From NCBI RefSeq assembly GCF_000400485.1, contig NZ_ASHR01000001.1, forward strand, positions 1 through 64,000: a DNA stretch of 64,000 nucleotides, in the 5' to 3' direction. The DNA is from Agrococcus pavilionensis RW1 (GTDB lineage: Bacteria; Actinomycetota; Actinomycetes; Actinomycetales; Microbacteriaceae). The notes beneath the pieces were generated by a model. It worked only from the letters and a program-made list of their open reading frames with translations. It had not been told where the DNA came from and did not search any database. How positions within the stretch are numbered: position 1 is the first letter of the stretch; every line of letters starts with the position of its first letter. The translations under genes and the position numbers were made by a program. Below are positions 13,012-55,630 of this stretch, one piece after another.

Positions 13012-15657
13012 TCAGTGCGCGGCGGCGTCCCAGTTCGCGCCGACGCCGACCTGCACCTCGAGCGGCACCGAGAGCTCGGCGGCGCCGCCCATCTCGGCGC
13101 GCACGATCGCCTCGAGCGCCTCGCGCTCACCGGTCGCGACCTCGAAGACGAGCTCGTCGTGCACCTGCAGCAGCATGCGCGAGCCGAGCCCCTCCTCGGC
13201 GATGCGGCGGTCGATCGCGATCATCGCGCGCTTGATGATGTCGGCGGCGGAGCCCTGGATGGGCGAGTTGAGTGCCTGCCGCTCGGCGTTCTCGCGCAGC
13301 ACGCGGTTCGACGACGTCAGGTCGGGGAACGGCCGGCGGCGGCCGAAGATCGTGGTCGTGTAGCCGTCGTCCTTCGCCTGCATCACGACGCCGCGGAGGT
13401 AGTCGCGGATGCCGCCGAAGCGCTGGAAGTAGTCGAGCATGAGCTGCTTCGCCTCGGCCTGCGAGATGCGCAGCTGCTTCGAGAGCCCGAAGGCGCTCAG
13501 CCCGTAGGCGAGGCCGTAGCTCATCGCCTTGACCTTGACGCGCTGGAGCGCCGTCACCTCGCTCGGGTCGACGCCGAAGATGCGGCTGCCGACGAAGCGG
13601 TGCAGGTCCTCCCCCGAGAGGAACGCCTCGATGAGGCCCTCGTCGCCCGAGAGGTGCGCCATGATGCGCATCTCGATCTGCGAGTAGTCGGCCGTGAGCA
13701 TCGTCTCGAACTCGGGCCCGTGCACGAACGCCGAGCGGATCTCGCGGCTCACCTCGGTGCGCACCGGGATGTTCTGCAGGTTCGGGTCGTTCGACGAGAG
13801 GCGGCCCGAGGCGGAGCCGGTCTGGTCGTAGCGCGTGCGGATGCGGCCGTCGTCCTGGATGGCCTTGAGCAGCGACTCGATGATCTGCGCGAGCTTCGAG
13901 GTCTCGCGGTGCTGCAGCAGCAGGCCGAGGAACGGGTGCGGGTTCGTCTCCTGGAGGTCGGCGAGCGCTTGCGCGTCAGTCGAGTAGCCGGTCTTCGTCG
14001 CGCGCGTCTTCGGCATGTCGAGCTCTTCGAACAGCACGGTCTGCAGCTGCTTCGGGCTGCCGAGGTTGACCTCGTGGCCGATCTCGGCGTACGCGGCCTC
14101 GGCGTGCGCCGCGGCCTTCGCGCGCATCTCGTCGAGGATGCGCTGGAGCACGTCGCGATCCATGTGCACGCCCTGGCGCTCCATGCGCACGAGCACGGGC
14201 ATGAGCGGCAGCTCGATGTCGTCGAGCACGCCGAGCGTGCCGGGGTCGAGGCGCGGGCGCTGGGCGCGCGAGAGCTCGCCCGTGAGCCACGCGACCGTGC
14301 CGAGCTGCTCGGGCTCGACCTCGGGCACGAGCTGGTTGGGGTCGGGCGCGGGCAGCGTCGCGCCGAGCAGCGCCTCGGTCTGCCAGTCGAGCTCGAAGGT
14401 CTTGGGCGGCGCGGTCGGCGTCTGCAGCCACGCGGCGACGCGCGTGTCGTGCGCGGCGCCGCCGAGCCGGAGCCCCGCGCGCTCGAGGAGCTTGATGGAT
14501 GCCTTGACGTCGTGGAGCGCCTTCGGGGCGTCCGACGCGAGCCACTCGACGAATCCGTCGTAGTCGGCCGTGCCGGCCTTGAACGGCACGTAAGCGCTCG
14601 CGCCCTCGGTCGCGACGCCGAAGCCCGCGATGCCGCCCGCGCCGTCGGGCGCGATCGAGACCGCGACCGTGCCCTTGGCGCGCGAGAGCCACAGGTCGAG
14701 CTCCTCGTCGACGAGCTTCTGCACCGCGGGTGCCTGCACCTCGGGCTCGAGCGCCGCCGCCGGCTCGCCCGTGCCCTCCTGCTTGAGCACGCGGTCGAGC
14801 AGCGTGCGGAACTGCAGCCGCTGGAAGACGTCGCGCAGCTTGGCCTCGTCGACCTGGCCGCGCGCGAGCTCGTCGAGCTCGACGCCGAGGTCGACGTCGG
14901 TGAGCAGCTGGTTGAGGCGGCGGTTGCGCTCGGCGCGCTCGCGCTGCTCGCGCAGGTTGTTGCCGACGACGCCCTTGATCTCGTCGGCGTGCGCGAGCAG
15001 GTTCTCGACCGTGCCGTACTGGGTGATCCACTTGACGGCCGTCTTCTCGCCGACCTTGTCGATGCCGATGAGGTTGTCGCTCGACTCGCCCACGAGCGCG
15101 GCGATCTCGGGGTACTGCGCGGGCTCGATGCCGTAGCGCTCGCGCACCGTCTCGGGCGTGTATCGCTTGAGCTCGGAGACGCCGCGCACCGAGGGGTAGA
15201 GCAGCGTCACGTCGTCGTTGACGAGCTGGATCGTGTCGCGGTCGCCCGAGACGACGTAGACGTCCATGCCGGCCTTCGCGCCCTGCACCGAGAGGGTCGC
15301 GAGGATGTCGTCGGCCTCGTAGTCCTCCTTCGAGAGGGTGCGCACGCCCATCGCGTGGAGCGCCTCCTCGAGGAGCGGCACCTGGCCCTTGAACTCCTTC
15401 GGCGTCTCGTCGCGCGTGCCCTTGTACTCGGCGTACTCGCGAGTGCGGAAGGAGTAGCGGGAGATGTCGAACGCGACCGCGAGGTGCGTCGGCCGGTGGT
15501 CCTGCAGCAGCTTGAGCAGCATCGACAGGAAGCCGTGGATGGCGTTCGTGTGCTGCCCTTCGCTGTTGACGAAGTTCTCGAGCGGCAGGGCGAAGAACGC
15601 CCGGAACGCGAGGGAGTGGCCGTCGATGACCATGAGGGTAGGCTTCGGATCCGACAC
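13012..15657 (-). CDS. polA: DNA polymerase I
   Basis: PolA fills repair gaps and removes Okazaki primers. The 881-aa protein has an N-terminal 5'-3' nuclease (about 1-300, with VSGDRDTIQLV and GVKG-like GIDKVGEKTA), a middle domain, and a family A polymerase domain with DYSQIEMRIMAHLS, the O-helix RVKVKAMSYGLAYG and the C-terminal VHDELVFE. In the middle domain the Exo I acidic DxE motif is absent (VAVSIAPDGAGG occupies the region), so no 3'-5' proofreading is expected; this is usual in actinobacteria. The GTG start gives MSDPKPTLMVIDGHS; TAGGCT ends 7 nt upstream. An ATG at 15627 is the alternative. It is divergent from the thioesterase gene. Confidence 0.96.
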   Translation of the reverse strand: MSDPKPTLMVIDGHSLAFRAFFALPLENFVNSEGQHTNAIHGFLSMLLKLLQDHRPTHLAVAFDISRYSFRTREYAEYKGTRDETPKEFKGQVPLLEEALHAMGVRTLSKEDYEADDILATLSVQGAKAGMDVYVVSGDRDTIQLVNDDVTLLYPSVRGVSELKRYTPETVRERYGIEPAQYPEIAALVGESSDNLIGIDKVGEKTAVKWITQYGTVENLLAHADEIKGVVGNNLREQRERAERNRRLNQLLTDVDLGVELDELARGQVDEAKLRDVFQRLQFRTLLDRVLKQEGTGEPAAALEPEVQAPAVQKLVDEELDLWLSRAKGTVAVSIAPDGAGGIAGFGVATEGASAYVPFKAGTADYDGFVEWLASDAPKALHDVKASIKLLERAGLRLGGAAHDTRVAAWLQTPTAPPKTFELDWQTEALLGATLPAPDPNQLVPEVEPEQLGTVAWLTGELSRAQRPRLDPGTLGVLDDIELPLMPVLVRMERQGVHMDRDVLQRILDEMRAKAAAHAEAAYAEIGHEVNLGSPKQLQTVLFEELDMPKTRATKTGYSTDAQALADLQETNPHPFLGLLLQHRETSKLAQIIESLLKAIQDDGRIRTRYDQTGSASGRLSSNDPNLQNIPVRTEVSREIRSAFVHGPEFETMLTADYSQIEMRIMAHLSGDEGLIEAFLSGEDLHRFVGSRIFGVDPSEVTALQRVKVKAMSYGLAYGLSAFGLSKQLRISQAEAKQLMLDYFQRFGGIRDYLRGVVMQAKDDGYTTTIFGRRRPFPDLTSSNRVLRENAERQALNSPIQGSAADIIKRAMIAIDRRIAEEGLGSRMLLQVHDELVFEVATGEREALEAIVRAEMGGAAELSVPLEVQVGVGANWDAAAH

Positions 15658-15664
15658 GACGGCC

Positions 15665-15670
15665 AGCCTA
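15665..15670 (-). promoter_or_regulatory. -10 element TAGGCT of leaderless polA
   Basis: TAGGCT ends 7 nt before the GTG start of polA, in the 52-bp divergent gap shared with the thioesterase gene. Confidence 0.5.
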
Positions 15671-15709
15671 GCCGGGGCTGCCGACACCCCAGCCGAGCGA
15701 GGAGCGCGC

Positions 15710-16150
15710 GTGAGCCCGGAGCCCATCGAGCACGAGGTCGACGAGGCGACGCGAGCGGTGCTCGCGCACCTCGAGGGGCGGCCGGGCGGCGAGCTCGCGC
15801 AGCGCATGCAGATCGAGTTCCTCAAGCTCTCGGCCGAGCACTCGATCGCGCGGATGCCCGCGGAGGGCAACCGGCAGCCGGCCGGCTTCGTGCACGGCGG
15901 CGCGTACTGCGTCATCGCCGAGACGCTCGGCTCGGTGAGCGCGAACATCCACGCGGGCGAGGGCCGCTACGCCGTCGGCACCGACATCAACGCGACGCAC
16001 ACGCGCTCGATCACGAGCGGATGGGTGACGGCCGAGTGCACGGCGGTCCACCTCGGGCGCTCCATGACCGTGCACGAGATCGTCTGCACGGACGACGAGG
16101 GCCGCCGCGCCTCGACCCTCCGCATCACGAACTTCATCAAGACCCGCTGA
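15710..16150 (+). CDS. PaaI-family hotdog thioesterase
   Basis: This is a 146-aa single-domain hotdog-fold acyl-CoA thioesterase of the PaaI/YbgC-like group. The signature is GFVHGGAYCVIAETLGS (about residues 61-77), where HGG and the following Glu form the usual active site, followed by the beta strands ending in TLRITNFIKT. Such enzymes hydrolyse short or aromatic acyl-CoA; the substrate here is unknown. The GTG start is fixed by a GAGGAG ribosome site 5 nt upstream. It faces the DUF559 gene, and the first 20-bp repeat array begins 18 nt past its stop codon. Confidence 0.88.
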   Translation: MSPEPIEHEVDEATRAVLAHLEGRPGGELAQRMQIEFLKLSAEHSIARMPAEGNRQPAGFVHGGAYCVIAETLGSVSANIHAGEGRYAVGTDINATHTRSITSGWVTAECTAVHLGRSMTVHEIVCTDDEGRRASTLRITNFIKTR

Positions 16151-16167
16151 CCCGCCCGTCCCCGCAC

Positions 16168-16400
16168 CCTGAGTGGCGCCTCCCGCACCTGACTGGCGCC
16201 CCCGAGTGGTCATTCCCGCACCTGACTGGCGCCTCCCGCACCTGACTGGCGCCTCCCGCATGTGAGTGGCGCCTCCCGCACCTGAGTGGCGCCTCCCGCA
16301 CCTGAGTGGCGCCTCCCGCACCTGAGTGGCGCCTCCCGCACCTGAGTGGCGCCTCCCGCACCTGAGTGGCGCCTCCCGTAGATGAGAGGCACCGGCAGCA
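16168..16400. repeat. Tandem 20-bp repeat array A (left arm)
   Basis: About ten near-identical copies of CCTGAGTGGCGCCTCCCGCA in head-to-tail order, with a 13-bp phase slip after the second copy (16201-16220) and a decayed last copy at 16381-16400. Copies at 16221-16380 keep an exact 20-bp period. The core is the palindrome GGCGCC. The array lies between the convergent 3' ends of the thioesterase and DUF559 genes. There are no spacers, so it is not CRISPR. The reverse complement of this unit forms array B on the far side of the DUF559 gene. Confidence 0.95.
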
Positions 16401-16415
16401 GATGAACGACGGCCG

Positions 16416-17306
16416 CTAAGCGGCGGTCCAAGAGCTGCAGCGCTGGTGCGCGGCTACGATCGCGCGCAGGATCGCCTTGCCGCCATCCGCGAGATCGTCC
16501 TTCGTGATGACGATCACGTGCCAGCCGAGCGCGCGCAGCTTCTCGCGGCGGATACGGTCCCGCTCCTGCTGAGCGGGATCGTTGTGATGCTCCCCGTCGT
16601 ACTCCACAGCGAGTTTGAGAGGCGGCCAGCTCGCGTCGAGCCGCGCGACGAAGAGGCCGGTCGCGTCGAACACCTCGTGCTGCAGCGTCGGCTCCGGCAG
16701 CGCTCCCATGATCAGGAGACGCACGAGCGTCTCGCGTGGTGACTCGGAGCCGACCCGCACGAGGGCGACCGCCTGTCGGGCGCGATGGAGCCCGCGCGCT
16801 CCCGGGTAGCGCCGCAGCGCATCCGTCAGGTCCTCGACCGTCAGCGGGTCGTGACGCTTCGTCGAGACGAGCCAGTCACCGACGGTCACGAGCTCCTCGA
16901 GGCTCAGCAGCGGGGCGAGGTGCACGAACGTGTCAGCCCTCGACTCGACGCGCAGACCGTCGACCTCCTCGACCGCCGACTTGAGGCGATGCCCGACCAC
17001 GCCGGGACGCTGCATGCGGGAGCGACCCGTCGGCGACGCGAGGTGGACGCGACCTTCGCGCTCAAGGCGCACGGGCAGCGGCATGCCGTGGACGCGTGCC
17101 GCGGTGGTGTGGGAGAAGAACTGGTCGTCGCCCGCGAGGACGCGAACCGCCTCGAGGAGCGCCTGATCCGCGTCGCCGATGGCGGCCGTGATGCGCGCGC
17201 CGCGAGCAGGAGACGTGAACGCCATGGATCGGAGCTCAGCTGCGGAGTAGCCGCGCTCGAGTCCCTCCCGGACCGTGAAGCCGTGCTCACTGTGCATGCC
17301 GTGCAT
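16416..17306 (-). CDS. DUF559 domain protein (Vsr-like endonuclease fold)
   Basis: The 296-aa product has an N-terminal region resembling the AbiEi-type wing seen in many actinobacterial DUF559 proteins (HSEHGFTVREGLERGYSAAEL) and a C-terminal DUF559 domain. In that domain LAVEYDGEHH, a following basic helix and LRALGWHVIVI match a PD-(D/E)XK/Vsr-like nuclease core. The function is unknown; DNA nicking or cleavage is an inference. It is enclosed by two inverted arrays of one 20-bp repeat (A downstream, B upstream). The start is uncertain: ATG at 17306 or 17297 are best, GTG at 17342 is possible, and none has a clear ribosome site. Codon use looks less GC-extreme than its neighbours, hinting at horizontal origin. 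Confidence 0.78.
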   Translation of the reverse strand: MHGMHSEHGFTVREGLERGYSAAELRSMAFTSPARGARITAAIGDADQALLEAVRVLAGDDQFFSHTTAARVHGMPLPVRLEREGRVHLASPTGRSRMQRPGVVGHRLKSAVEEVDGLRVESRADTFVHLAPLLSLEELVTVGDWLVSTKRHDPLTVEDLTDALRRYPGARGLHRARQAVALVRVGSESPRETLVRLLIMGALPEPTLQHEVFDATGLFVARLDASWPPLKLAVEYDGEHHNDPAQQERDRIRREKLRALGWHVIVITKDDLADGGKAILRAIVAAHQRCSSWTAA

Positions 17307-17394
17307 GGTGACGGCAGGTGGCGCGGACTTGTGCCTGCGCACCCGGGTGCTGTGGAGAGCGCCAGGGAGCAGCGGTGCCCGTGTCGCGGGCGGC

Positions 17395-17690
17395 TGCGGG
17401 AGGCGCCACTCACCCGCGAAGGGCGCCGCTCACCTGCGGGAGGCGCCACTCACCTGCGGGAGGCGCCACTCACCTGCGGGAGGCGCCACTCACCTGCGGG
17501 AGGCGCCGCTCACCTGCGAAGGGCGCCACTCACCTGCGGGAGGCGCCACTCACCTGCGGGAGGCGCCACTCACCTGCGGGAGGCGCCACTCACCTGCGGG
17601 AGGCGCCACTCAGGTGCGGGAGGCGCCAATCACCCGCGGGAGGCGCCACTCACGTGCGGGAGGCGCCACTCACCTGCGGGAGGTGGCAGG
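17395..17690. repeat. Tandem 20-bp repeat array B (right arm, inverted)
   Basis: Fourteen copies of the unit TGCGGGAGGCGCCACTCACC run at an exact 20-bp period, with cores starting every 20 bp from 17402 to 17662 and a decayed end at 17681-17690. Read on the other strand, the unit is GGTGAGTGGCGCCTCCCGCA, so array B is inverted relative to array A. Variants include CGAA for CGGG before 17421 and 17521. It fills most of the 403-bp gap between the start of the DUF559 gene and the stop of the ANTAR regulator gene; the remaining ~90 bp next to the DUF559 gene shows no clear promoter. Confidence 0.95.
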
Positions 17691-17709
17691 CGGCGGCGCG
17701 GGGCGGGGG

Positions 17710-18348
17710 CTACTTCTTGGTGCTCAGCTGCTCGATGACGGCCTGCGCGACCTCGGCCATCGTGAGGCGGCGGTCCATCGAGGCCTTCTGGATCCAGCGG
17801 AACGCCTCCGGCTCGGCGAGGCCCATGCGCTGGTTGAGCAGGCCCTTCGCGCGGTCGACGAGCTTGCGCGTCTCGAAGCGGTCGGCGAGGTCGGCGACCT
17901 CGCTCTCGAGCGCCCGGATCTGGTCCCAGCGCGCGAGGGCGATCTCGATCGCCGGCAGCAGGTCGTTCTGCGTGAACGGCTTCACGACGTAGGCGAGCGC
18001 TCCCGCCTCGCCGGCCCGCTCGACGAGCTCCTTCTGGCTGAACGCCGTGAGCAGCACGACCGGCGCGATCTTCGCGGCGCTGATCTTCTCGGCCGCGCTG
18101 ATGCCGTCCATCTTGGGCATCTTGACGTCCATCACGACGAGGTCGGGCTCGAGCTCGGTCGCGAGCTCGACGGCGCGCTCGCCGTCGCCGGCCTCGCCGA
18201 TGACCTCGTAGCCCGCGGCCTGCAGCGTCTCGACGATGTCGAGGCGGATGAGCGACTCGTCCTCGGCCACGAGCACGGTGCGCGCGGTCGTCGCGTGCTC
18301 GGCGGGAGCCTGGTCGGTGATGGGCTCGGCGAAGAGGTCGTCGGTCAT
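17710..18348 (-). CDS. ANTAR-domain response regulator (PdtaR-like)
   Basis: The 212-aa protein has a receiver domain (about 22-140) with EDESL, phospho-acceptor Asp in VVMDVKMPKMDG, Thr in LLTAFSQ and Lys in VVKPF, followed by a C-terminal ANTAR RNA-binding helical domain (about 150-205) with LVDRAKGLLNQRMGLAEPEAFRWIQK. ANTAR regulators bind paired hairpins in nascent RNA and prevent termination. The architecture matches mycobacterial PdtaR (Rv1626), whose partner kinase PdtaS is not encoded in this window. TAGGCT ends 7 nt before the ATG, so the transcript is probably leaderless. The gene is divergent from tRNA-Leu, and its 3' end abuts repeat array B. Confidence 0.92.
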   Translation of the reverse strand: MTDDLFAEPITDQAPAEHATTARTVLVAEDESLIRLDIVETLQAAGYEVIGEAGDGERAVELATELEPDLVVMDVKMPKMDGISAAEKISAAKIAPVVLLTAFSQKELVERAGEAGALAYVVKPFTQNDLLPAIEIALARWDQIRALESEVADLADRFETRKLVDRAKGLLNQRMGLAEPEAFRWIQKASMDRRLTMAEVAQAVIEQLSTKK

Positions 18349-18351
18349 GGC

Positions 18352-18364
18352 CACTAGCCTAGTG
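18352..18364. promoter_or_regulatory. CACTAG-C-CTAGTG palindrome with overlapping -10 elements
   Basis: This perfect 6-bp inverted repeat with a single central base lies 3 nt from the ANTAR regulator ATG. On the minus strand it contains TAGGCT (18356-18361) at leaderless spacing. On the plus strand it contains TAGCCT about 38 nt before tRNA-Leu. The two divergent genes could therefore share this control site. Confidence 0.45.
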
Positions 18365-18397
18365 TTCGCAGCGGCCGGGCATCCGCCCGAGCCGTCA

Positions 18398-18479
18398 GCC
18401 GGTGTGGCGGAATCGGCAGACGCGGCGCACTCAAAATGCGCTTCCGCGAGGAGTGTGGGTTCGAGTCCCACCACCGGCA
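18398..18479 (+). tRNA. tRNA-Leu (anticodon CAA)
   Basis: This 82-nt class II tRNA has acceptor stem GCCGGTG paired with CACCGGC, discriminator A, anticodon stem GCGCA/TGCGC around loop CTCAAAA (anticodon CAA, reading UUG), a short variable arm, and the T-loop GGTTCGAGTCC. The 3' CCA is not encoded. It is the only plus-strand gene between the thioesterase and the right end. Confidence 0.95.
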
Positions 18480-18484
18480 CGGCA

Positions 18485-18517
18485 GGAGCCCGGACGATCC
18501 ACGATCGTCCGGGCTCC
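18485..18517. terminator. Bidirectional terminator between tRNA-Leu and pyk
   Basis: A perfect 15-bp stem (arms 18485-18499 and 18503-18517) with a 3-nt loop separates the converging tRNA-Leu and pyk transcripts. It starts 6 nt after the tRNA and ends 14 nt from the pyk stop codon. Confidence 0.85.
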
Positions 18518-18531
18518 GCTCGTCGAGCGGC

Positions 18532-20025
18532 TCAGCCCTCCGCGGGATGCGGCGCCGACTGGTGCCGCACCTCGATGCGGCGCTTGCCGTGGTAGGCGGG
18601 CGCGGCCTCGGCGTGCACGTCGCCGACGACGTGGATGCGGATGTCGTTCGTCGAGCCCGAGATGCCCGGCGGCATGCCCGAGATCACGACGACCTTCTTG
18701 CCGACGGGCACGAGCTGCTTGCCGATGAGCACGTCGTCGACCTGCGCGATCATGTCGTCGGTGTGCATCACGCGGTCGACGAGGTGCGTCTGCATGCCCC
18801 AGATCATCTGCATGCGCGACTCGACCTCGGGGTCGGGCGTGAAGCCGAAGGTCGGGATCGCGGTGCGCAGCCGCGCCATGCGGCGCGCGGAGTCGCCCGA
18901 CTCGGTGAAGACGACGATCGCCGCCGCCTCGACGAACTCGGCGACCTCGAGCGCGGCGAGCGTGATCGCGCCGCCCTGCGTGCGCGGCTTCGTGCCGAGC
19001 GGCGGGATGCGGCCGAGGCCGTGCTCCTCCGCGGCCGACACGATGCGCGCCATCGTCTCGATCGTCGTGATCGGGTGGCTGCCGACGCTCGTCTCGCCCG
19101 AGAGCATCACGGCGTCCGCGCCGTCGAAGACCGCGTTCGCGCAATCGCTCGCCTCGGCGCGTGTGGGGCGCGGGTTCTCGATCATCGACTCGAGCACCTG
19201 GGTCGCGACGATGACGGGCTTCGCCCATCGCCGCGAGAGCTCGATCGCGCGCTTCTGGACGAGCGGCACCTGCTCGAGCGGCAGCTCGACGCCGAGGTCG
19301 CCGCGCGCGACCATGATCGCGTCGAAGGCGTCGATGATGTCGGGCAGGTTCTCGACCGCTTGCGGCTTCTCGATCTTCGCGACGACGGGGAGCCGGCGGC
19401 CCTCCTCGTCCATGATCGCGTGCACGCGCTCGATGTCCTTCGCGTCGCGCACGAACGAGAGCGCGATGATGTCGGCGCCGAGGTGGAGCGCCCAGCGCAG
19501 GTCCTCCTCGTCCTTCTCGCTCATCGCGGGCACGTTGACGGCGACGCCGGGCAGGTTGATGCCCTTGTTGCTGCTCACCGGCCCGCCGACCTCGACCTCG
19601 GTGACGACGTCGGTCTCGGTCACCTCGACCGCGCGCAGCACGATGCGCCCGTCGTCGACGAGCAGCGGGTCGCCGGGACTCACGTCGGCGGGCAGGCCCT
19701 TGAAGGTCGTGCTCGCGCGCTGGCCGTCGCCCTCGACGTCGTCGGTCGTGATGGTGAACCGGTCGCCCTCGCGGAGCTCGAACGGCCCGCCGGGGATCTT
19801 CCCGAGGCGGATCTTCGGCCCCTGCAGGTCGACCAGGATGCCGACGGGCTTGCCGAGCTCGTCGGATGCCTTCCGGATGTTCGCGTACACCTCCTCGTGG
19901 ACGCTGTGGTCGCCGTGGCTCAGGTTCATGCGCGCGACGTTGATGCCGGCCGCGATCGCGGCCTTCGTCATCTCATAGCCGGCGAGTGCCGGCCCGAACG
20001 TCGCGACGATCTTGGCTCGTCTCAA
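18532..20025 (-). CDS. pyk: Pyruvate kinase
   Basis: Pyk converts phosphoenolpyruvate and ADP to pyruvate and ATP at the end of glycolysis. The 497-aa protein starts RRAKIVATFGPALAG and has GINVARMNLSHGDH, the active-site region VVAKIEKPQAVENL, the metal-binding MVARGDLGVELP, and VMLSGETSVG. Length is slightly above the 470-480 typical of the family owing to an extended C-terminus. The start is TTG (at 20025), chosen because the conserved N-terminus begins there and no ATG/GTG fits; there is only a weak purine run upstream. An 85-bp gap separates it from gltD, in which I see no strong hairpin or clear promoter. Confidence 0.95.
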   Translation of the reverse strand: MRRAKIVATFGPALAGYEMTKAAIAAGINVARMNLSHGDHSVHEEVYANIRKASDELGKPVGILVDLQGPKIRLGKIPGGPFELREGDRFTITTDDVEGDGQRASTTFKGLPADVSPGDPLLVDDGRIVLRAVEVTETDVVTEVEVGGPVSSNKGINLPGVAVNVPAMSEKDEEDLRWALHLGADIIALSFVRDAKDIERVHAIMDEEGRRLPVVAKIEKPQAVENLPDIIDAFDAIMVARGDLGVELPLEQVPLVQKRAIELSRRWAKPVIVATQVLESMIENPRPTRAEASDCANAVFDGADAVMLSGETSVGSHPITTIETMARIVSAAEEHGLGRIPPLGTKPRTQGGAITLAALEVAEFVEAAAIVVFTESGDSARRMARLRTAIPTFGFTPDPEVESRMQMIWGMQTHLVDRVMHTDDMIAQVDDVLIGKQLVPVGKKVVVISGMPPGISGSTNDIRIHVVGDVHAEAAPAYHGKRRIEVRHQSAPHPAEG

Positions 20026-55410: not shown

Positions 55411-55470
55411 GCGAGTGGCGCCTCCCGCAGGTCAGTGGCGCCTCCCGCACCTGAGGGGCGCCTCCCGCAC
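55411..55470. repeat. 20-bp repeat cluster C, left arm
   Basis: Three 20-bp copies (55411, 55431, 55451) of the same unit as array A: each contains GGCGCCTCCCGCA preceded by GAGT, CAGT or GAGG. A decayed fourth copy follows. The orientation is the same as array A, and the inverted right arm lies 40 bp away, so cluster C is a miniature of the A/B pair without a gene inside. Confidence 0.85.
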
Positions 55471-55510: not shown

Positions 55511-55630
55511 CAAGGCGCCACTCACCCACCGCAGGCGCCACTCACCCACCGCAGGCGCCACTCACCCACCGCGGGAGCCACTCACGTACCGACGGCGCCA
55601 CTCAGCCACCGCGGGCGCCGGTCGGGTGCG
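55511..55630. repeat. 20-bp repeat cluster C, right arm (inverted)
   Basis: Five 20-bp copies starting at 55511, 55531, 55551, 55571 and 55591, of the type GCAGGCGCCACTCACCCACC, with a decayed sixth at 55611-55630. They are in the array B orientation, facing the left arm. The CCCACCGC flank differs from the CCTGCGGG flank of array B, while the GGCGCCACTCA core is kept. The cluster separates aroB from aroQ. Confidence 0.85.

Follow-up and report, generated by a model that had tools for sequence, protein, structure and literature searches.

We analysed a stretch of 64,000 nucleotides from Agrococcus pavilionensis RW1 (positions 1 to 64,000 of contig NZ_ASHR01000001.1; hereafter the window). A DUF559/MTES_1575-type gene is the sole gene between two tandem repeat arrays of opposite orientation, and the genes on either side, both outside this unit, converge on it:

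15710..16150, + strand: 4HBT thioesterase gene, neighbour (Pfam)
16161..16393, + strand: array A, 11 tandem 20-bp units with core TGAGTGGCGCC (TRF, core scan and sequence)
16416..17342, − strand: DUF559/MTES_1575-type gene, 308 aa from GTG 17342 (Pfam)
17394..17683, − strand: array B, 14 tandem units, inverted with respect to A (TRF and core scan)
17710..18351, − strand: ANTAR response regulator gene, neighbour (Pfam)

Array A separates the 3′ ends of the thioesterase and DUF559 genes, and array B separates the start codon of the DUF559 gene from the 3′ end of the ANTAR regulator gene. TRF places array A at 16161–16378 (score 322) and array B at 17394–17683 (score 482), and the core scan places them at 16170–16393 (+) and 17402–17672 (−), respectively. 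The units of array B follow a strict 20-bp step; those of array A follow 20-bp steps with one step of 33 bp, and some of them read CCTGACTGG. In their own reading direction, most B units start with GGTGAGTGG, for which the counterpart in A is CCTGAGTGG, and one B unit is identical to the A 20-mer. TRF, the core scan and Pfam thus confirm the inverted arrays around one DUF559 gene that a preliminary description of this DNA had reported. Its 14 copies in array B are correct and its ‘about 10’ in array A come to 11 units; the strict 20-bp period it gave to both arrays applies to B but not to A, and B is the inverse of A in orientation but only approximately in sequence.

The gene caller prefers a start at 17306 to GTG 17342. 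In Pfam, DUF559 scores 23.5 bits with the window protein, just over the cut-off of 20.6, and MTES_1575 scores 27.3 bits, under its cut-off of 38.2. An Rfam scan of 15500–18600 matched only a tRNA, the gene of which (18398–18479, + strand) adjoins the ANTAR regulator gene.

The repeat family in its own genome and in the genus

With up to two mismatches allowed, the 20-mer has 42 matches across the 2.88 Mb of the genome, and none when read backwards; a two-unit pattern with up to three mismatches gives 85 matches, and its reversed control 6. By inspection, the two-unit matches group into about 10 array loci, of which one, the window's, has a DUF559 gene and about nine in ten have none. The genome also holds three paralogues of the window gene (31–38% identical), and six DUF559-like places outside the window locus are free of GAGTGG arrays. 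Coincidence of gene and arrays was our first working hypothesis, based on the array loci without the gene and on the array-free DUF559-like places, and was abandoned after the genus comparison and the flank tests against control genes. A second element of this repeat family within the window has no DUF559 gene and sits between two co-directional genes (both arms from TRF and the core scan):

55412..55462, + strand: stand-alone element, left arm, 3 units
55514..55604, − strand: stand-alone element, right inverted arm, 5 units

Exact two-unit matches in a collection of 84,980 species comprise 27 stretches, all from Agrococcus; among 398 Microbacteriaceae genomes, nine have two-unit matches, and two of these are not Agrococcus and have one match each. 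With the ANTAR regulator gene as anchor for orthologous sites, we found a DUF559 gene between thioesterase and regulator genes in 19 of 24 Agrococcus genomes. Most of these genes carry inverted 20-bp arrays on their flanks, with a unit core that varies by species (GAGTGGCGCC, GAGTGGTCAC, GAGCGGTCAC, GAGTGGCCA, GATTGGCCA). A general two-unit pattern has 9–87 matches in each of 19 genomes; the remaining five of the 24 have one match or none, as does every genome with the reversed control. In all 19 array-rich genomes there is a gene that shares at least 44% identity with the window gene. Four of the array-poor genomes (G005, G006, G011 and G022) have no gene more than 36% identical to it, and the fifth (G019, 65% complete) has some that are 46–54% identical. 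Since G005, G011 and G022 form one clade, the absences of arrays and gene count as about two independent ones, and the co-occurrence inferred across the genus rests on no more than these few. G006 is the sister (support 0.75) of G004, which has arrays and a broken gene copy.

At the regulator site of G004 (L090/L099; G004:C1:216615-217510), both arrays persist beside the broken gene, and this genome keeps 46 two-unit matches.

None of 44 Agrococcus array clusters lies inside a gene. Ordered by start, 30 of the 44 dispersed clusters read ‘+−’, 14 are single and none reads ‘−+’; the arms converge. Array positions recur between species, as judged by eye from gene sizes, and the elements are therefore partly old and inherited. 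Some Agrococcus contigs (L029, L035, L037, L038 and L047) start or stop at or inside arrays; draft assemblies probably break at arrays and hence undercount them.

Placement was counted with the four DUF559 loci left out. Six of the nine stand-alone array loci of A. pavilionensis lie between convergent and three between co-directional genes; the other intergenic gaps in these array loci comprise 1 convergent, 28 co-directional and 10 divergent ones. Of the 35 clusters in relatives, 5 are at contig ends; 14 lie between convergent genes, 14 between co-directional and 2 between divergent ones. The other gaps there number 9, 41 and 34 in these three classes. The frequent position between converging genes (6 of 9 own loci, and 14 of the 30 clusters in relatives with both neighbours seen) speaks for a reading in which the palindromes are bidirectional terminators or RNA hairpins of gene ends, and the DUF559 genes are passengers there. 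In its strict form, with one array per gene 3′ end, a terminator role fails because some elements, that at 55.4 kb among them, do not lie between convergent genes; the broader form is taken up below.

Flank matching and site turnover in Agrococcus

The Agrococcus subfamily, defined by at least 43% identity to the window protein, has 33 genes, three of them broken. Nineteen are orthologues at the single regulator site and 14 lie elsewhere, with at least five neighbour contexts. The threshold was the 99% level of a null built with right flanks of other genera. An inverted match between the two flanks exceeded it in 32 of the 33 genes, the miss being L158. All 19 regulator-site genes pass, and so do 13 of the 14 others; of the less closely related DUF559 genes in Agrococcus, 10 of 18 pass and 8 stay under threshold. 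The preliminary description named, as grounds for refutation, a subfamily that is normally without repeats; with matching inverted flanks in 32 of 33 genes, that outcome is ruled out for Agrococcus. It needs correcting in that about nine in ten array loci of the own genome do not adjoin a DUF559 gene.

Mismatched Agrococcus flanks also often pass: 59% of 342 regulator-site pairs and 13% of 182 other-site pairs exceed the threshold, as do 8% of 306 pairs from the less related genes. Median scores for true versus mismatched pairs are 62 versus 20 at the regulator site, 29 versus 12 at other sites and 19 versus 11 for the less related genes, and the true partner is top-ranked in 4 of 19, 4 of 14 and 8 of 18 cases, respectively. 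Since mismatched flanks match so often, related genes share repeats, and specificity in Agrococcus therefore lies at the level of the lineage and not of the single gene. Flank repeats had also been counted crudely by k-mers, with a weaker contrast, and exact-match and mismatch-tolerant control tests replaced this count. By k-mers, repeats were present on both sides in 22/33 subfamily genes, 4/18 other DUF559 genes and 0/48 window controls; the two flanks matched in inverted orientation in 26/33, 9/18 and 10/48.

Away from the regulator site, the flanks are often plain palindromes. L095 has perfect stems of 24 and 20 bp on the two sides of its DUF559 gene; L087, L096 and L156 have exact inverted matches of 30–36 nt across the gene, and palindromes of very different sequence accompany several of the less related DUF559 genes in Agrococcus. 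The tandem arrays of Agrococcus look like derivatives of a simpler palindrome of about 60 bp.

A second site, locus 2, lies between two converging genes and holds a DUF559 gene in G007, G008, G012 and G013. It is gene-free in G004, G014 and G016, where both neighbours are adjacent, 92–128 bp apart; G002 and G003 were not counted as gene-free, since only one expected neighbour stands beside the site (in G003, the other is a different gene). The gene in G008 and G013 is opposite in orientation to that in G007 and G012. In G012, the gene shares 70% identity with a G019 gene and about 50% with those of G007, G008 and G013; different DUF559 lineages have therefore occupied the site. G007, G008 and G013 have similar outer arms, with an inner palindrome of one type in G008 and G013 and of another in G007, which suggests, by inference, insertion into a pre-existing element. 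The gene-free sites hold other hairpins, which would also suit terminators. Compared by eye, filled and gene-free flanks are too diverged to define a junction or target-site duplication.

One further hairpin type, starting GACCC[GC]TTCC, is seen at gene-free locus 2 (L289, L293 and L294) and in L291, where it has the form GACCCCTCC.

Inverted repeats at both ends liken the DUF559 units to insertion sequences. The DUF559 protein would then be a transposase, the palindromes its terminal inverted repeats and the stand-alone copies MITEs. Such a transposon would agree with inverted matches across the gene that are exact over as many as 36 nt in Agrococcus (28 nt outside it), with filled and gene-free sites and with two orientations. 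However, the divergence of the locus-2 flanks leaves no definable target-site duplication in support, the window's genome has no recent multi-copy family of the gene (only the paralogues at 31–38% identity), and the regulator-site gene is present in 19/24 Agrococcus genomes. Each end is, moreover, itself palindromic in 34 of the 43 matching genes outside Agrococcus, and we regard a transposon of this kind as quite unlikely.

Flanking and stand-alone hairpins outside Agrococcus

A profile (A1) of 48 proteins, with the three broken genes excluded, matched 93 of 120 Microbacteriaceae genomes, from 61 of 78 genera. Eighty regions were taken, comprising the first-listed place of 64 genomes and 16 further-listed places; because places were taken by listing order, the sample favours close relatives. 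Two regions without a usable frame (L237 and L253) were dropped, leaving 78 genes. An exact inverted match of at least 14 nt between 400-bp flanks is present in 25/78 genes versus 4/362 controls and 2/379 mismatched pairs, and one of at least 16 nt in 22/78 versus 2/362 and 0/379. In a mismatch-tolerant test on 300-bp flanks, 43/78 genes pass versus 4/369 control genes from the same regions, and 35/78 are under threshold; 0.9% of 1,932 mismatched flank pairs pass, as do 2/87 controls with gaps of at least 80 bp on both sides. A hairpin is found in both flanks of 34 of the 43 matching genes. Outside Agrococcus, matching is thus particular to the gene's own flanks and rare in mismatched pairs and control genes, which argues against passengers at terminators.

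The median arm of 76 hairpins is 24 nt (10–90%: 17.5–29) and the median gap 13 nt (6.5–22). CGA occurs in the outer 13 nt of 51 arms and in the inner 13 nt of 14; the outer 13 nt contain CGTC in 7 and GTAG in none. Left and right stem positions, compared in 31 genes, are the same in 532 cases, broken on one side in 82, compensated in 8 and broken on both sides in 23. The mostly one-sided changes are better explained by paired sites for a protein on double-stranded DNA than by selection for a stem in a single strand. In L095, the inner stem has been replaced, fully matched, in one pair. We rejected a reading as RNA structure on the few compensatory changes in the 31 genes and on the Rfam scan with its single tRNA, and the same two observations count against terminators. 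Genes with more similar proteins show a weak tendency towards more similar arms (Spearman 0.14, Mantel p 0.011, 42 genes); backward-read arms give 0.04 and no such trend.

Copies of the hairpins without a gene occur in the same genomes. In an approximately 411-kb set from G044, the hairpin (18-nt arm, up to two mismatches) is found on both sides of the gene and at four stand-alone places. The G006 hairpin has three stand-alone places in about 395 kb: a single 20-kb stretch contains two, separated by 4.6 kb, and the third is at the gene-free regulator site, where it had been seen before the dispersal search. The long G044 and G006 arms have no match in the other two sets of about 400 kb, and a 15-nt part of the G044 arm has one match in each of them. 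In G097, clear hairpins accompany two DUF559 genes, and about 400 kb of this genome contain no paired stand-alone copy and only two single-arm near matches. Noise ruled out the use of a loose pattern made from the L169 hairpin (31 matches in 402 kb of G006 versus 24 in 933 kb of other genomes).

A tblastn search gave five plasmid records with DUF559 relatives, in four of which the matching place covers more than 80% of the query; the fifth (Nonomuraea, 31% of the query) was left out of the count. All four near-full-length genes (4/4) have matching palindromes on both sides, with flank scores of 24.5, 24.5, 37 and 43.5; the gene limits were set by hand in two unannotated records.

NZ_AP024649.1, NZ_CP012477.1 and NZ_AP024648.1: Arthrobacter plasmid records with a flanked DUF559 gene (tblastn)
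NZ_LR134454.1: Tsukamurella plasmid record with a flanked DUF559 gene (tblastn)

NZ_CP012477.1 resembles the window in having three tandem 31-bp copies together with inverted copies. Among 72,556 plasmid records, the Tsukamurella hairpin occurs in 8 (at least 20 places), all T. tyrosinosolvens, two StoSoilB13 hairpins only in that strain's two records (at least 40 and at least 10 places) and the ERGS1:01 element only in its own record (at least 10 places). These four hairpins are strain- or species-restricted among the plasmid records, a collection that excludes chromosomes of other species. Because palindromes can count on both strands, places are not counts of elements. All three Tsukamurella stand-alone copies that we opened lie between annotated converging genes. 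Terminators would not need a shared arm sequence, yet the hairpins form strain- or species-specific families; taken with the flank and stem comparisons above, we think it very improbable that terminators explain the elements.

Three T. tyrosinosolvens NCTC13231 records labelled as plasmids (L378–L380: NZ_LR134453.1, NZ_LR134460.1 and NZ_LR134456.1) carry tilS, hpt, ftsH, gcvT and other such genes and look like pieces of a chromosome. MT837503.1 (L377), an unverified phage scaffold from human faecal samples, encodes a 32% identical DUF559 relative whose inverted flanks match (score 22).

According to the available part of PMC7319586, the sites bound by AbiEi and Rv2827c are pairs of 23-bp inverted repeats separated by 3 and 13 bp, through which both proteins autoregulate. 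The DUF559-associated repeats could likewise be operators only, with an AbiEi-like domain repressing its own gene through the upstream copy, the remaining copies being a regulon or decoys and the nuclease having an unrelated role. The similar size and spacing of the repeats, the position of one array next to the start codon of the DUF559 gene, and the one-sided stem changes, as protein sites would show, are all compatible with this. It does not account for the matching repeats on the downstream side, for arms that expand to arrays of 11–14 units, or for presence, absence and both orientations of the gene at one site, and no promoter would be expected between converging genes, where the three opened Tsukamurella copies lie. 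We therefore consider it unlikely that the repeats are operators and nothing else.

The protein and the proposed unit

The AlphaFold2 model of the window DUF559 protein has a pLDDT of 92.3 and a pTM of 0.87. Its best Foldseek match is the AbiEi antitoxin 6y8q (E 5e-4, TM 0.47 by target length, rmsd 6.1 over 195 columns), and another is 3r3p, the catalytic domain of I-Bth0305I (E 0.04, probability 1.00), an intron-encoded homing endonuclease of the Vsr-like EDxHD type. By sequence, AbiEi_1 is recognised in only 1 of 48 proteins. Residues D236, Y248, G250, H253 and D262 are present in 48/48 proteins and E247 in 47/48. In prediction, then, the protein resembles an AbiEi-like part joined to an EDxHD/Vsr-like nuclease domain, the former N-terminal and the latter C-terminal, a placement inferred from the Pfam position (242–297); there are no binding or cleavage data. 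PF01797 (Y1_Tnp) has no match in the own genome, and an AbiEii (DUF1814) toxin gene is not among the window neighbours, which at this locus are the 4HBT and ANTAR genes.

REP-type repeats are known in many bacteria. The portions of PMC3733652 available to us describe REPs as families of short extragenic palindromes, mostly 3′ of genes, in which the RAYT gene is flanked by its own family, and the only dedicated enzymes tied to REPs there are HUH tyrosine transposases. The DUF559 units are like these REPIN-RAYT systems or ‘REPtrons’ in that an enzyme gene is flanked by inverted members of its own repeat family (43/78 genes outside Agrococcus and 32/33 in it) and that the repeats are dispersed in extragenic DNA of the same genome (G044, G006 and the named strains, with none paired in G097). 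They differ in the enzyme, which is AbiEi/EDxHD-like and not a Y1/HUH tyrosine transposase, and in the arms, which are longer (median 24 nt), lack GTAG (0/76) and in Agrococcus have become long tandem arrays. Because they have no Y1/HUH enzyme, the DUF559 units fall outside the REPIN-RAYT systems.

Other systems share single features. ‘TIRtrons’ are, in the same portions of PMC3733652, RAYT-like genes between long inverted repeats, some of which form repeat families; gene, long inverted repeats and partial dispersal are common to both, whereas the HUH tyrosine transposase belongs to TIRtrons only. CGTC-tagged REPs, for which that part of the source reports no dedicated transposase, are found mostly in alpha-Proteobacteria and have stems of 8–9 bp; they too are palindromic families without a known Y1 partner, but CGTC is present in just 7 of the 76 outer arm ends of the DUF559-associated hairpins. 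The AbiE type IV toxin-antitoxin system is approached through the Foldseek match to 6y8q and the binding of paired inverted repeats by AbiEi (PMC7319586, as far as available); the window locus, however, has no DUF1814 toxin, the DUF559 protein has a fused nuclease domain, and its repeats are on both sides and dispersed. I-Bth0305I shares with the model the 3r3p match and the conserved acidic and histidine residues, but the DUF559 gene is intergenic and flanked by palindromes, and no cleavage is known. In the open-access literature, no title or beginning of an abstract ties DUF559 to repeats among the matches listed; others are not excluded. The pairing of DUF559 with repeats is a REP/RAYT-like arrangement on an unrelated enzyme.

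Comparison of genomes shows matching repeats on both sides of the gene, a lineage-linked repeat sequence (weakly tracking the protein), stand-alone copies and site turnover, all at the level of sequence. The organisation, a gene with matching inverted flanks and dispersed copies, is very likely real; the mechanism of recognition, cutting and spread is inferred, and its chances are about even. We interpret the DUF559 gene and both arrays as probably one genetic unit, a selfish pair that is either REPIN/RAYT-like or homing-like, in which binding, cutting and spreading are inferences. The analogy with REP/RAYT units had already been drawn in the preliminary description. It gains support from the 32/33 flanked genes and from cognate hairpins standing alone elsewhere in the same genomes, while the roughly nine in ten own array loci without a DUF559 gene weigh against it. 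Most REPs likewise are not next to a RAYT gene.

In the mechanism that we propose for this unit, the protein would bind the arms as paired half-sites, as AbiEi does on 23-bp inverted repeats, and would nick or cut at the bound arms. Through repair and recombination, further intergenic spots might thereafter acquire a copy of the palindrome, in some cases along with the gene, and the arms might lengthen into tandem arrays of the kind seen in A and B. A more general proposal, to which we give equal weight for and against, is that such selfish pairs are widespread in Actinomycetota: an AbiEi-like protein with an EDxHD/Vsr-like nuclease would create, spread and home into its own palindromes, each gene lineage would found a strain-specific REP family, the arms would have grown into the arrays of Agrococcus, and the enzyme would be a non-HUH maker of REPs.

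If this is true, actinobacterial REP-like families would gain a candidate maker in a common, uncharacterised nuclease family, and the DUF559/MTES_1575 proteins would gain a testable function. The origin and persistence of REPs would then become testable with one protein and one DNA of about 60 bp.
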